Under the pieces are notes generated by a model. It ran no database searches. It was not told where the DNA came from and saw nothing but the letters and a program-made list of their open reading frames with translations. This document shows, piece by piece, positions 1 through 23,510 of a stretch of 36,938 nucleotides of DNA. The DNA is from Treponema sp. Its GTDB lineage: Bacteria > Spirochaetota > Spirochaetia > Treponematales > Treponemataceae. The position numbers were made by a program, and so were the translations under genes. The stretch is taken from the NCBI GenBank assembly GCA_024680155.1, contig JAILCM010000176.1, positions 1-36,938 on the forward strand, in the 5' to 3' direction. Each line of letters starts with the position of its first letter. The first letter of the stretch is position 1.

Positions 1-633
1 AAAAAGTTTTATCAATTGTGCCATTAATGCTGCCGTTCCGCTTCCGATTATAATTTGTTCGGGGGAACAGTCTATTCCTCGATGATTATACAGATAATTT
101 GCAATTGCCTTTCTGAATTCAATATCACCGCAAAAGTTTCCGTTCTGTCCCAAAATTGATTCGTTCGTTGTTGAAAGAACCTGCCTGTAAAGTCTACGCA
201 AAGTATCGTATGGAAATAGAGAACTGTCTGTAAGGTTTGCAGAAAGATTTAGAATTGAGTTGTTTGTATTTGTTACTTCATTCCTGCCACCAGCGAAAAC
301 TTGCTTTTCACGAAATCTATCTTTTTTATCTTTTGCATCTTTGTTTTTTTCTTCATTTACATTTGAAACATTCCAACTCTTTTTTTCTCTAGCACCTTCA
401 TATTCCAGATGAATCAAATCTTCATCAAAATCAGCTACATAAAAACCGCTCTTTTCCCGCGAATAAATATATCCTTCTTCTAAAAGCTGATTGTAAGCGT
501 TCTGCACCGAGTTACAGCTAATCCCATTTTCGTCCGCATATTTACGAATAGAAGCAATTTTCTCCCCCGGTTTAAGCTTTCCACTTCGAATGTCATCAAT
601 TATTTTTTGATAAACTTGTCTGTAAATAGTCAT
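1..633 (-). CDS. MocR/PdxR-type GntR-family regulator (partial, C-terminus off the window)
   Basis: The minus strand reads open from an ATG at 633 to the window edge, giving 211 codons. Residues 1-70 form a GntR-type winged helix: the start MTIYRQVYQKIIDDIRSGKL is followed by PGEKIASIRKYADENGIS and then NSVQNAYNQLLEEGYIYSR. After a charged linker (about 85-120), an aminotransferase fold type I domain begins, with LSANLTDSSLFPYDTLRRLY, GDIEFRKAIANYL and EQIIIGSGTAALMAQL. This is the MocR architecture, in which a PLP-binding aminotransferase-like domain senses ligand. The PLP lysine would lie beyond the edge. The gene diverges from a pyridoxal kinase gene, so control of vitamin B6 salvage (PdxR role) is the natural inference. 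Other MocR members regulate GABA, taurine or other pathways, so the ligand is not proven. Confidence 0.88.
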   Translation of the reverse strand, partial: MTIYRQVYQKIIDDIRSGKLKPGEKIASIRKYADENGISCNSVQNAYNQLLEEGYIYSREKSGFYVADFDEDLIHLEYEGAREKKSWNVSNVNEEKNKDAKDKKDRFREKQVFAGGRNEVTNTNNSILNLSANLTDSSLFPYDTLRRLYRQVLSTTNESILGQNGNFCGDIEFRKAIANYLYNHRGIDCSPEQIIIGSGTAALMAQLIKLF

Positions 634-14635: not shown

Positions 14636-14752
14636 GGTTTGTACAAATGGCGTGTGTTTGGGAGGGGAAAGTCTCCCCCTCGCTCCAGCCGTAGCCACGG
14701 CTTTCGCTACCCCCTCGCCTAAGGGCTCTGCCCTTAAAATCCCGTGTAAACC
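14636..14752. repeat. GC-rich multi-hairpin intergenic element
   Basis: A GC-rich island in AT-rich flanks. It contains GGGAG/CTCCC near 14660-14678, the hairpin AGCCGTAGCCACGGCT (14687-14702) and a perfect 7-bp stem TAAGGGC-TCT-GCCCTTA (14720-14736). Imperfect outer arms GGTTTGTACA and TGTAAACC close it. On the minus strand it would be the 5' leader of the histidine genes, 25 bases from their start. It is either a leader structure or a dispersed repeat. No histidine-rich leader peptide was found. Confidence 0.6.
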
Positions 14753-14803
14753 AGTTTTTTATAATCTTATAGCTATAATAATATTAAATAGTTATATATT
14801 GAT

Positions 14804-14832
14804 ATATTGTTTGCGTTTTAGTATACTATAAT
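14804..14832 (+). promoter_or_regulatory. Candidate promoter of the structured RNA
   Basis: An exact TATAAT stands at 14827-14832 directly before the 5' arm of the long-range stem. The -35 is weak: TATTGT at 14804-14809 with a 17-base spacer. Transcription would start near 14838, at the edge of the 5' arm. Confidence 0.5.
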
Positions 14833-14834
14833 CC

Positions 14835-15132
14835 GGCATTCGCAATTGATGGCGGTCTTGTCTCTGAAATTCGACTGTTCTAGGAAACTGGAATGGATTG
14901 CTAAATTAGGAGGCAGCTATGAGTCTGTTTGAACTTCTTAGTTTGCTGTTAGAAGCAATTAAGGTAATCATCGACATTATTCAGCGCCTTCTCCGTAGAC
15001 GGAAAAAAGGTAAACGAATAAAAAAATAGCGCCCGCCTTATAAAGTGTTACGACCCACTGGCGGGCGCATGGTCTAGGTAACTAGACAACCCCTAGAGGC
15101 AAGACGCTTAATTGCGAATGCCTTTCTTTTTT
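14835..15132 (+). ncRNA. Candidate structured RNA/mRNA with paired ends and an embedded peptide ORF
   Basis: The two ends of this 298-base stretch are complementary. GGCATTCGCAATT (14835-14847) pairs perfectly with 15110-15122, and GTCTTGTCTCT (14855-14865) pairs with 15095-15105 over 11 bp with one G-U. The 3' arm is followed at once by a T tract (15123-15132), so the closing stem can also act as terminator. Inside are the peptide ORF (14919-15029), a GC-rich hairpin (GCGCCCGCC at 15029-15037 with 15060-15068, extended by AGTG/CACT), and a hairpin GTCTAG-GTAA-CTAGAC (15072-15087) with a GNRA loop. No known RNA family is recognised; motifs of tmRNA, 6S RNA and RNase P RNA were looked for and not seen. 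Confidence 0.7.
14919..15029 (+). CDS. 36-residue hydrophobic/basic peptide, candidate type I toxin-like
   Basis: An ideal Shine-Dalgarno AGGAGG (14908-14913) lies five bases before the ATG. The peptide begins MSLFELLSLLLEAIKVIIDI and ends with a tail that is almost only Arg and Lys (RLLRRRKKGKRIKK). The first 25 residues form an amphipathic or membrane-seeking helix with acids at positions 5, 12 and 19, and the last 14 carry about ten positive charges. This composition is typical of small membrane-acting peptides. The stop codon overlaps the first base of a strong GC hairpin. The ORF sits inside an RNA whose ends pair, as in some type I toxin mRNAs. No antisense antitoxin promoter could be identified. 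It might instead be a regulatory leader peptide or a phage relic. Confidence 0.65.
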   Translation: MSLFELLSLLLEAIKVIIDIIQRLLRRRKKGKRIKK

Positions 15133-15180
15133 AATATAACACACCTTTCCATCCGTGGCAAGGTTAATTAATTAAATCTA

Positions 15181-19937: not shown

Positions 19938-22900
19938 ATGAAACATAAATTTTTAGGAGTTGCTGCAATACTTTTTGCCGTAGTTTTTGCAAGCTGCTCT
20001 CACATGATACAAGATTTAAAAATCGCGGAATTGGAGTTAACCGTAATTCAAAGTTCAATGGTTAATCCAGATAACGTAGTAAAAGTTACGGTTGAAGATG
20101 ATATTCCTGATTTTCCAAAGCCAACGGCAACTTACAAACTTCCTGACGGAACAACCAAAACCGTAGAAGGAACTGTAACAACAGACGAAGACGGAAAAAA
20201 AGTTATTATTTTTGACTTGACTCCAATTAGTAAGGTTCCGGGCGGTGAGTTACCTGTAGACGTTAATGTTCCAGGTTATAAACCAACAACAATAACCGTA
20301 AATTACATTCCTCCTGTAGTAGTTAAACTTGAATCAGACGGTATAACTTACACAGCCGGCGATGACGTTCTGGTTTCTTCAGATGAAAATGGAACAATTA
20401 GTGAACCTGTTGTAAAAACAAACTATACAGAAGATGCAATTAGTGTAGAAAAGAAATACTACATTGAAGGTAGCTCTGTGCCTGTAGACTGGAGTGCAAT
20501 TCAGGATTATCTTAACAATCCAGAAAACAAGGGTAAAAAAGTTACTGTAAAAGTTGTTGCAAAACCAACACCAGATACAAACCCTACAAGCGGAAAAACA
20601 TCTAAATTCTATGTTTCAAAGACAGAAAAGCCATTCATTAATATAACAGGTACAGAAGTTAAGAACCCAGAAGGAATAATTATTGTTGATATTGACGATG
20701 ATGACATTCCTTATACTCCAAAACCAACTGTAACTTACAAATTGGAACCAGATGGAGAAGAAGTTGAAATTCGTGGAACTGTAGAAGAATACGAAGATGA
20801 AGATGACCTTGATGAAGATGGAAATCCTAAGAAAAAGAAGAGAATCATTTTTGATTTGAAGCCAATTAATCCTCGTATGCCTGTTGGAAAACTTCCTATT
20901 GTTATAAAGGTAGAACCAAATTACAGACCTACAAGCGAAACTGTAGATTTCTACCCACCTGTAATTACAAAAGTTACTTATGATGACGAAGAATACGAAG
21001 ACGGAGAAGAAATCAAGCTTGATGATGATGACGATATTGAAACATTGCCAGAGCCTGTAATTACAACAAATTACGATGATGACAAAGTAGAAATCGTAAC
21101 TACTTACGAAGACGAAGATGGAAATCCTATTGGAGACCTTGACGGCGACGGAAAGCCAAGTTGGGGTGATGTAAAGAAATATTACAACGACCCAGAACAT
21201 CCAGAAAACAAGGGTAAGAAAGTTAAGGTTAAGATTGAAGGTACTCCAAAACCAAATACAACTCCAAGCGGAAAAACAACTACAGAAATTGTAATTGTTC
21301 CAAAACCTGTAGTTAAGACTGGAAAACCAGAGACTAAGGAACCAGAAGGAATCGTTTATATTCCTGTAGATGATGATATTCCTGAAACTCCAAGACCAAT
21401 CCTCACTTACGAAAGCTACCCTGATGGCGAACCAGTAGAAGTTCCTGGAACTGTAGAAGAATACTACGACAACGAAGATCTTGACGATAATGGAAATCCT
21501 AAGAAAAAGAAGAGAATTAAGTTCTGTTGGATTCCAAGACCACGCGGAGGAGATGTTCCTGGTACAGTTATTGTTGAAGGTTACCAGCCAACACCAATCG
21601 AAGTTCCAGACTACAAGCCGCCTGTAATCATCAAGATTGAAGTTGATGGTAAAGAATATGAAGAAGGTGAAGAAATCGTTACAGATAAGGATAACTTCCC
21701 TGGAAAACCAAATATTCACACAAATTACGACGAAGATGACGTTGAAATCAAAACAACTTACGAAGACGAAGACGGAAATCCTATCGAAGACAAAGACGGC
21801 GACAGTGACAAAGACTGGGATGCTGTAAAGAAATATTACGAAGACCCAGACAACGAAGGAAAGAAAGTTAAGATTAAGGTTGAAGTAACTCCAAAAACAG
21901 ACCCAACAAGCAAGAAGGTTTCAGAATTTGAAATTACTCCAAAGCCTGTAGTGAAGGTTAACAAAATTGAAGAAACTGAGGAGCCAGCTGGAGTTATTGT
22001 TTATACAGATGATGACATTCCAGAAAATCCAAAACCTATCATCAGATATAACCGCTACCCTGACGGTGAACCTGTAGAAGTTGAAGGTACTGTAGAAACA
22101 TACACAGATGATTCTGAAGAGCCACCTGTAGAGCGCAAGAGAATTATATTTAAGTATAATCCTAAACCTCGTGGAGGAAAATTACCTGTTCAGATTGAAG
22201 TAGAAGGATATAAGCCTACAGAAATCGAAGGAGTTGAATATCATCCACCTGTAATTATTAAGGTTAATTTCGACGGACATCCTTACGAAGACGGAGATGA
22301 AATCAAAGTTGAAGATGACGAAGATATTGACGAGTTTGAACCAATCATTATTACAAACTACAACGATGAAGATATCGAAAAAGAAACTACTTACGAAGAC
22401 GAAGATGGAAATCCTATTGGAGATCTTGACGGCGACGATGATGTAGACTGGGATGATGTAAAAGAATATTACAAGAAACCAGAACACAAAGGTAAGAGAA
22501 TTAAGATTAAGGTTAAAGTAACTCCAAAACCAGACACAACTCCAACTGGAAAACAGGAAGTTACAGTTGACTTTGTTCCAAAACCTGTTGTTAAGATTGG
22601 TCAACCAGAAACTAAGGAACCGGAAGGAATTATTTATTTCCCTGTAGATGATGACATTCCAACAACTCCAAGACCAATTCTTACTTACGAAGGCTACCCT
22701 GACGGTGAACCTGTAGAAATTGAAGGTGAAGTAGAAGAATACACAGATGATTCTGTAGAGCCTTCTGTAATTCGCAAGAGAATTAAGTTCAATTGGAACC
22801 CAAGACCTCGTCCTGGTACAGTTCCTGGAACAATCATTATCGACGGTTACAGACCAACCCCTGTTGAAGTTGAAGGCTATAAGCCACCTGTAATCATCAA

Positions 22901-23510
22901 AGTTGAAAAAGACGGAAAACCTGTAGAAGATGGCGAAGAAATTGTCTTTAGCGAAGATGAAGACGAATTCCCAGGAAGACCAACTATTACTACAAACTAC
23001 GACGATGACGATGATGATGACGATGACGGCGTTGAAATTGAAGAAGAGTATTTTGATAAGGACGGAAATCCTATCGAAGATCTTGACGACGATGGAAATA
23101 AACCAGATTGGGATGATGTAGTAATCTTTACTAAGGATCCAGAAAACCACGATAAGCTTCCTGTTACTGTAATTGTTCACGGTAAACCAAAAGGAAGTGA
23201 TGATCCTGATTTGGAAAAAACATTCACTTACAAAATTGGTGTAAGAACAGTAGTAATTGATATTACGGTTGAAACTAATCTGTTTACTCTTACTGCAATT
23301 AAGCACGGAGATACCGTAGACTTTGTAGTTACAACAAATATTCAAACAAGTTCTTATGTATGGCTTATTGACGGCGTACAGCAGCCACAAACTTCTGAAA
23401 GCTTGACTGTTGATACAACAACAATGGAGCCTGGTGAACATACAGTCACAGTAGTAACTGTTAAGAATGGAATTCCGTATTCATCGGAAGCATCTTTGAC
23501 AGTTAATTAA
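19938..23510 (+). CDS. Large acidic lipoprotein with five ~215-residue repeats and EF-loop-like motifs
   Basis: The family is not recognised. A lipoprotein signal (ILFAVVFASC, Cys20) leads into five tandem repeats of about 205-225 residues, starting near bases 20010, 20629, 21304, 21944 and 22583. A typical repeat runs KPVVKxxxPExKEPEGIIY, DDDIPxTPRPILTYE, YPDGEPVEVxGTVEEY, KPPVIIKV, YEDGEEI, TTYEDEDGNPI, and then an Asp-rich loop before W and DVKKYY. That loop (DLDGDGKPSWGD in one repeat) has acids at positions 1, 3, 5 and 12, like EF-hand or dockerin calcium loops. It is present in the last four repeats and absent in the first. A C-terminal Ig/PKD-like domain (last 80 residues, YVWLIDGVQQ to YSSEASLTV) is shared with the next gene. 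Surface or periplasmic calcium-stabilised rod is inferred. Confidence 0.85.
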   Translation: MKHKFLGVAAILFAVVFASCSHMIQDLKIAELELTVIQSSMVNPDNVVKVTVEDDIPDFPKPTATYKLPDGTTKTVEGTVTTDEDGKKVIIFDLTPISKVPGGELPVDVNVPGYKPTTITVNYIPPVVVKLESDGITYTAGDDVLVSSDENGTISEPVVKTNYTEDAISVEKKYYIEGSSVPVDWSAIQDYLNNPENKGKKVTVKVVAKPTPDTNPTSGKTSKFYVSKTEKPFINITGTEVKNPEGIIIVDIDDDDIPYTPKPTVTYKLEPDGEEVEIRGTVEEYEDEDDLDEDGNPKKKKRIIFDLKPINPRMPVGKLPIVIKVEPNYRPTSETVDFYPPVITKVTYDDEEYEDGEEIKLDDDDDIETLPEPVITTNYDDDKVEIVTTYEDEDGNPIGDLDGDGKPSWGDVKKYYNDPEHPENKGKKVKVKIEGTPKPNTTPSGKTTTEIVIVPKPVVKTGKPETKEPEGIVYIPVDDDIPETPRPILTYESYPDGEPVEVPGTVEEYYDNEDLDDNGNPKKKKRIKFCWIPRPRGGDVPGTVIVEGYQPTPIEVPDYKPPVIIKIEVDGKEYEEGEEIVTDKDNFPGKPNIHTNYDEDDVEIKTTYEDEDGNPIEDKDGDSDKDWDAVKKYYEDPDNEGKKVKIKVEVTPKTDPTSKKVSEFEITPKPVVKVNKIEETEEPAGVIVYTDDDIPENPKPIIRYNRYPDGEPVEVEGTVETYTDDSEEPPVERKRIIFKYNPKPRGGKLPVQIEVEGYKPTEIEGVEYHPPVIIKVNFDGHPYEDGDEIKVEDDEDIDEFEPIIITNYNDEDIEKETTYEDEDGNPIGDLDGDDDVDWDDVKEYYKKPEHKGKRIKIKVKVTPKPDTTPTGKQEVTVDFVPKPVVKIGQPETKEPEGIIYFPVDDDIPTTPRPILTYEGYPDGEPVEIEGEVEEYTDDSVEPSVIRKRIKFNWNPRPRPGTVPGTIIIDGYRPTPVEVEGYKPPVIIKVEKDGKPVEDGEEIVFSEDEDEFPGRPTITTNYDDDDDDDDDGVEIEEEYFDKDGNPIEDLDDDGNKPDWDDVVIFTKDPENHDKLPVTVIVHGKPKGSDDPDLEKTFTYKIGVRTVVIDITVETNLFTLTAIKHGDTVDFVVTTNIQTSSYVWLIDGVQQPQTSESLTVDTTTMEPGEHTVTVVTVKNGIPYSSEASLTVN

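Follow-up and report, generated by a model that had tools for sequence, protein, structure and literature searches.

The locus at positions 14,835 to 15,132 of the window (the whole stretch analysed, 36,938 nt of Treponema sp. contig JAILCM010000176.1) probably represents a new spirochaete lineage of type I toxin-antitoxin modules, which resembles the holin-like-toxin modules txpA/RatA and bsrG/SR4 in layout and is probably related to them by descent. Comparison of sequences establishes four features on which this assignment is built: the existence of homologues, covarying pairing between the mRNA ends, an antisense promoter and terminator, and constraint on the coding sequence. The plus strand is predicted to give an mRNA of ~295 nt for a 36-aa peptide. 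On one side of the module is a hisA/hisI/hisE fusion gene, followed further out by hisD, and on the other an unassigned 278-aa ORF. A 316-nt stretch folds at -117.3 kcal/mol, compared with -76.8 +/- 4.9 for dinucleotide shuffles (z -8.3; 0/100).

Sense mRNA, end pairing and antisense gene

The sense promoter (14799..14827, plus strand) consists of TTGATA (14799-14804), a 17-nt spacer and TATACT (14822-14827), from which transcription is expected to start at ~14834-14839. Promoters of comparable type lie upstream of most copies and are absent from three array copies. The exact TATAAT that the original prediction placed before the 5' arm is present at 14827-14832, 2 nt from the stem, and overlaps TATACT; however, the spacing seen in relatives favours TATACT as the -10 element. 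The stems, T tract, AGGAGG, ORF and two internal hairpins of that prediction were all confirmed in place. The 5' arm (14835..14865, plus strand) pairs with the 3' arm (15095..15122, plus strand) through a perfect outer stem of 13 bp (14835-14847, GGCATTCGCAATT, with 15110-15122, AATTGCGAATGCC) and an inner stem of 11 bp with one G-U (14855-14865, GTCTTGTCTCT, with 15095-15105, AGAGGCAAGAC). The inner part of the 5' arm doubles as a leader anti-Shine-Dalgarno (aSD1), and the 3' arm is a mimic of the Shine-Dalgarno (SD) region (GAGGCAAGAC) that also forms a local GGCA..CGC/GCG..TGCC hairpin. Between the arms, on the same strand, are a leader hairpin (14875..14896) with compensatory changes among copies, the SD AGGAGG (14908..14913) and the ORF (14919..15029). 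A T tract, TTTCTTTTTT (15123..15132, plus strand), conserved among copies, is the predicted end of the sense transcript.

Pairing between the two arms is conserved and covaries. Cognate arms reach -40.4 kcal/mol against -35.8 kcal/mol for swapped arms (38 copies; 0/20000 permutations, relatedness uncorrected), and in 80 copies the cognate duplex reaches -44.0 against -34.9 kcal/mol for non-cognate ones (0/5000 permutations, relatedness uncorrected). Both comparisons bear out the compensatory changes in the closing stem that had been set as a test of the structure; for example, GGCATTCGCAATT/AATTGCGAATGCC in the window copy is replaced by GCACCCGTGACA/TGTCGCGGGTGC in copy L044. Most copies that keep the ORF also keep the pairing: the end duplex is stronger than -30 kcal/mol in 72 of the 79 ORF-bearing copies (shuffled mean -20.5). 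The weakly paired remainder consists of five units from a single array, three of them lacking a recognisable sense promoter as well, and two divergent copies (L120 and L126). RNAalifold did not find the end pairing on a MAFFT alignment, in which the arms are probably a little misaligned, and the cognate/non-cognate duplex test was used in its place.

The minus strand carries a gene of its own. Its predicted promoter (15133..15161) has TTGCCA at 15161-15156, a 17-nt spacer and TATATT at 15138-15133, and precedes GGCATTCGC...; an antisense promoter of the form TTG-16..18-TANNNT occurs in 101/116 copies, compared with 7.8% of shuffles, the commonest version being 17-TATATT. The putative antitoxin RNA (15015..15127, minus strand) would run from 15127 to 15015, ~113 nt with three hairpins and a fold of -41.2 kcal/mol, and would overlap the 3' half of the mRNA and its stop codon with full complementarity. 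Covariance model R1 matches 15013-15129 with E 3.1e-17, the window copy being itself part of the model. The antisense intrinsic terminator (15020..15068, minus strand; GCGCCCGCC...GGCGGGCGC then TATTTTTTTATTC) is a conserved GC hairpin with a 9-bp stem (15029-15037/15060-15068), whose T tract coincides with the Lys-Lys-stop codons of the sense strand; it is found in all aligned copies, with compensatory changes at two stem pairs. Between promoter and terminator are the GGCA/TGCC hairpin and a middle hairpin (15072..15087, minus strand; GUCUAG-GUAA-CUAGAC when read on the plus strand, with a GUAA loop), the sequence of which varies freely and which recurs as a hairpin in most copies. The antisense RNA best accounts for both internal hairpins, with the GC hairpin as its terminator. 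Sequence conservation points to an antisense gene with its own promoter and terminator lying over the toxin mRNA, as in type I systems, and the antisense RNA whose search had been proposed as a check is thereby predicted.

The antisense unit also occurs alone: 36 of 121 units lack a toxin ORF. One of these (L002, contig C277, 163-293), in the genome from which the window comes, lies at the 3' end of a different gene, and all that it retains of the toxin are the Lys-tail codons. In L112, L114 and L115 the terminator hairpin comes immediately after the stop codon of ORFs that resemble the C-terminal end of PD-(D/E)XK/Transposase_31-type (Rpn-like) proteins. These ORF-less units could be solo trans-acting antitoxins or decayed modules.

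Control of the Shine-Dalgarno sequence

The partner of the SD was followed by equilibrium folding, which ignores proteins and kinetics, in 28 copies. The SD is paired in all predicted states and changes partner between them. In nascent or 3'-truncated RNA it is paired with the leader (GCCTCC-type aSD1; 0.87-0.89), whereas in the full-length RNA it is paired with a segment inside the ORF, aSD2 (0.71), and the leader is drawn into ~26 bp with the 3' arm, a look-alike of the SD region (GAGGCAAG vs GGAGGCAG). In the window copy this change is predicted to occur once 15095-15105 has been transcribed. The predicted cost of opening the SD/start region is 8.1 kcal/mol for the full-length RNA and 12.3 kcal/mol once the antisense-covered part is removed, compared with 4.8 kcal/mol for the ordinary genes of the window. 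Removal raises the cost in 28/28 copies, and shuffled controls differ by 0.01; the increase arises because, without the 3' arm, the leader re-pairs with the SD. The aSD2 element (14984..14994, plus strand; GCGCCTTCTCC in codons RLLR) draws support from the leucine codons: Leu24 is encoded by CTT/CTC in 26/26 and Leu25 by CTC in 12/12, while the other Leu positions freely use TTG, CTG and TTA. Covariation with the SD is modest for aSD1 (87/5000 permutations) and not significant for aSD2 (452/5000), the weak signal being due to the SD hardly varying.

According to these predictions every state is locked, the end-paired full-length mRNA least and the antisense-bound mRNA most. End pairing therefore probably loosens the lock and the antisense RNA restores it, which is the reverse of hok and of aapA1 and aapA3 (PMC6733600). 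On this basis we tentatively favour, as plausible though far from secure, a switch in which end pairing is a release device and not a silencer. The 3' arm, on emerging, would capture the leader by end-to-end pairing, imitating the SD so as to pull the leader anti-SD off it after transcription, and the SD would pass to its weaker partner, aSD2. Sharing its initial sequence with the leader, the antisense RNA may compete for the 3' arm and bind it first, forcing the leader back onto the SD and so re-locking the message; the resulting mRNA-antisense duplex would be a substrate for RNase III, and loss of the short antisense RNA would release peptide synthesis. If this account is right, the locus is a three-way mimicry switch, and its family would be the first of the type I toxin-antitoxin class in Spirochaetota, the solo antisense copies being possible trans-acting antitoxins. 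Since the SD is largely paired in the full-length RNA too, folding alone leaves full release unexplained.

The main competing explanation is a type I toxin mRNA that works as hok and aapA1 do, the full-length message being silenced by end pairing and opened to translation by 3' trimming. The long-distance interaction between the 5' and 3' parts of the full-length mRNA is indeed there, conserved and covarying; several anti-SD sequences are present, as in aapA3 (PMC6733600), and the mostly paired SD makes the full-length mRNA costlier to open than an ordinary gene. Removal of the 3' arm, however, is predicted to raise the opening cost where such a mechanism calls for a lower one, and the conserved antisense gene covers the 3' half and ends at the stop codon, being directed at neither the leader nor the ORF start. 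We accordingly regard this explanation as rather unlikely. The original prediction had assigned the silencing of the full-length mRNA to end pairing, as in hok and aapA1, and in this respect it is not supported by the folding, in which leader or ORF holds the SD and end pairing lowers the opening cost. Its broader proposal of a translation-locked, type I toxin-like peptide mRNA in a treponeme gains support from the SD being paired in every predicted state, the compensatory changes in the closing stem and the predicted antisense RNA.

Peptide and family

The 36-aa product, MSLFELLSLLLEAIKVIIDIIQRLLRRRKKGKRIKK, is predicted to form an amphipathic or hydrophobic helix with a very basic tail, and in the family the consensus starts with M(S/T/N)xYExL.L... 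and is hydrophobic or amphipathic to about residue 24, before the basic tail. The median dN/dS of the ORF is 0.39, with values below 1 in 97% of pairs, and this estimate is conservative because RNA constraint acts on silent sites. The locus thus has the small (<60 aa) hydrophobic peptide ORF with an SD, under selection, that typifies type I toxins. The peptide is a putative membrane toxin; the hydrophobic part of the window copy carries charges (Glu5, Glu12, Lys15, Asp19), so this peptide may be amphipathic and not membrane-spanning.

The window peptide matched no family, Pfam Hol_Tox included. Its divergent relatives do match Hol_Tox (PF16935) in the same register, the best at 20.4 bits (E 4.7e-4; cut-off 23.3), and matches at E<=0.1, all sub-threshold, were obtained in 8 of 40 relatives, the Pfam gathering score being reached neither by any of them nor by the window peptide. 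Divergent relatives also match phrog_9488 (E 1.2e-6). A tblastn search with one relative retrieved Brevibacillus phage ORFs, one of them annotated as a putative holin-like toxin (E 0.8); the annotated protein clearly belongs to Hol_Tox (6.8e-13). We infer from these matches that the peptides are remotely akin to the txpA/bsrG toxins, a relationship that is putative in the case of the window copy, and the earlier view that the element had no visible relationship to known families is not supported.

BLAST with the element gave matches, many of them tandem, in 53 of 200 genomes of the same genus, and a covariance model of the antisense half was positive in 75 of 196. Beyond the genus, a 393-genome draw from the phylum yielded two weak matches only. 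Starting from one of them, L123, we reached a second subfamily, whose arms differ in sequence and which retains the end pairing and the antisense promoter; it is present in two other genera of the same family and in a single MAG assigned to a different one, an occurrence that is provisional because this MAG could be contaminated. A motif scan of named genomes added T. bryantii NK4A124 (with 5 antisense units), T. ruminis RU1, Treponema JC4, C6A8 and many rumen MAGs, the carriers being gut and rumen spirochaetes. The assembled set comprises 121 distinct antisense units; in 81 of them an SD precedes an ORF of 26-37 aa, and these ORFs encode 79 distinct peptides. A motif match in a Methylobacter MAG (L074), with neither ORF, terminator nor arms, was rejected as chance, and so were weak DNA matches outside the Treponema family, mostly on the A-rich Lys-tail stretch. 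No match to the window element was found in PADLOC or NCBIfam, in DNA-level searches of phage and plasmid collections, or in a motif scan of viral contigs.

An amphipathic and strongly cationic product, encoded by paralogous tandem copies and diverging fast, could also be a leaderless secreted peptide (bacteriocin or modulin-like), the RNA structures only tuning expression. We consider this improbable in view of the conserved antisense gene over the mRNA, the multi-layer lock on the start site, the resemblance to Hol_Tox, the many copies that retain the antisense unit after ORF loss, and flanking genes that vary from copy to copy, none being common to most neighbourhoods. Lower still in probability is a MITE-like mobile element with an incidental ORF, in which the end pairing comes from terminal inverted repeats: the repeats at the ends, the multiple copies and the variable surroundings fit it, but we rejected it, as target-site duplications were found in 0/38 copies, conservation continues beyond the right repeat into the antisense promoter, the ORF is under purifying selection and the arms differ between subfamilies in a compensatory way. 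Equally hard to credit is a structured non-coding RNA (6S-, tmRNA- or sponge-like), which the strong fold, paired ends and two internal hairpins would suit, given that the window element matched no tRNA or tmRNA and no Rfam family at gathering (0 matches), with nothing meaningful at a loose threshold, and that 81 distinct copies retain the ORF with its SD. Identity with tmRNA or a known Rfam family was accordingly rejected, as was a loose-threshold match to suhB/mmgR (E 0.075, far under its cut-off).

The tandem array L032 (genome G176, contig C13, about 26.5-32.2 kb) contains ~10 units; in several, insertion of a ~75-nt hairpin repeat separates the leader from the ORF, and some have degenerate 5' arms and no recognisable sense promoter. 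ORFs of one cluster lie near the modules at 14 of 49 loci examined (raw count), for instance L009, L014 and L032, and two members of the cluster match PDDEXK_2 (E 2.9e-24) or, sub-threshold, Transposase_31. In the window, a dispersed repeat (CCCCCTCGCTCCAGCCGTAGCCACGGCTTTCGCTACCCCCTCGCC...; 14650-14760) with 14 matches in the genome adjoins the module, and a 1190-aa ORF (19938-23510) has repeated aspartate-rich modules after a lipoprotein-like N terminus.

Relation to known type I systems

A 2025 paper describes its cyanobacterial locus as the first type I system outside Proteobacteria, Firmicutes and Tenericutes (PMC12390103). We found no report of a spirochaete type I system in the open-access papers searched. 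If our assignment is correct, the range of these systems widens to include Spirochaetota, where they form at least two divergent subfamilies and comprise tandem arrays as well as solo antitoxin genes, and one locus would unite the antisense layout of Firmicutes with a fold-back mRNA of the Helicobacter style. The rich natural variation of the family makes the role of end-to-end pairing in toxin mRNAs directly testable.

The aapA/IsoA modules combine an end-to-end interaction, sequential anti-SDs in leader and ORF, and several modules per genome (PMC6733600). All three are displayed by the Treponema modules. IsoA overlaps the 5' part of the aapA gene and acts on the trimmed mRNA, whereas the Treponema antisense RNA covers the 3' half; similarly, 3' trimming activates aapA and is predicted to tighten the lock in Treponema. 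No sequence kinship between the two was found. In hok/Sok of E. coli plasmid R1, the mRNA ends fold back and the SD is controlled by structure (PMC6733600), as in the module described here, which differs in the position of its antisense RNA and has no Rfam match. Another parallel concerns fst/RNAII. This Enterococcus system has convergent genes, a short peptide with a charged tail and repeat sequences in both RNAs. The Treponema module likewise has convergent genes, a short charged-tail peptide and a sequence common to both RNAs, with no sequence kinship found; the shared sequences of fst are direct repeats, whereas in Treponema the inverted ends make both RNAs start alike.

In B. subtilis, RatA, SR4 and SR5 overlap the 3' ends of their mRNAs over 100-140 bp, and SR4 extends the SD stem of bsrG mRNA, thereby strengthening the lock (PMC6562991). 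The likeness to txpA/RatA and bsrG/SR4 extends to the convergent toxin mRNA and antisense RNA with a 3'-end overlap (here ~113, predicted), to an SD locked by base pairs and to the sub-threshold Hol_Tox matches of the treponeme-family peptides; as with SR4, folding predicts that the antisense RNA strengthens the SD lock, in 28/28 copies. RatA, for its part, recruits RNase III. The Treponema module differs in belonging to another phylum, in the large basic tail of the window peptide, which Hol_Tox does not recognise, in its two anti-SD elements and SD-mimicking 3' arm, and in the starting sequence shared by leader and antisense RNA. In Brevibacillus phage Osiris (L219, 540-800), the mRNA of the annotated holin-like toxin is likewise predicted to fold with pairing between leader and 3' part, with a z of -6.0.
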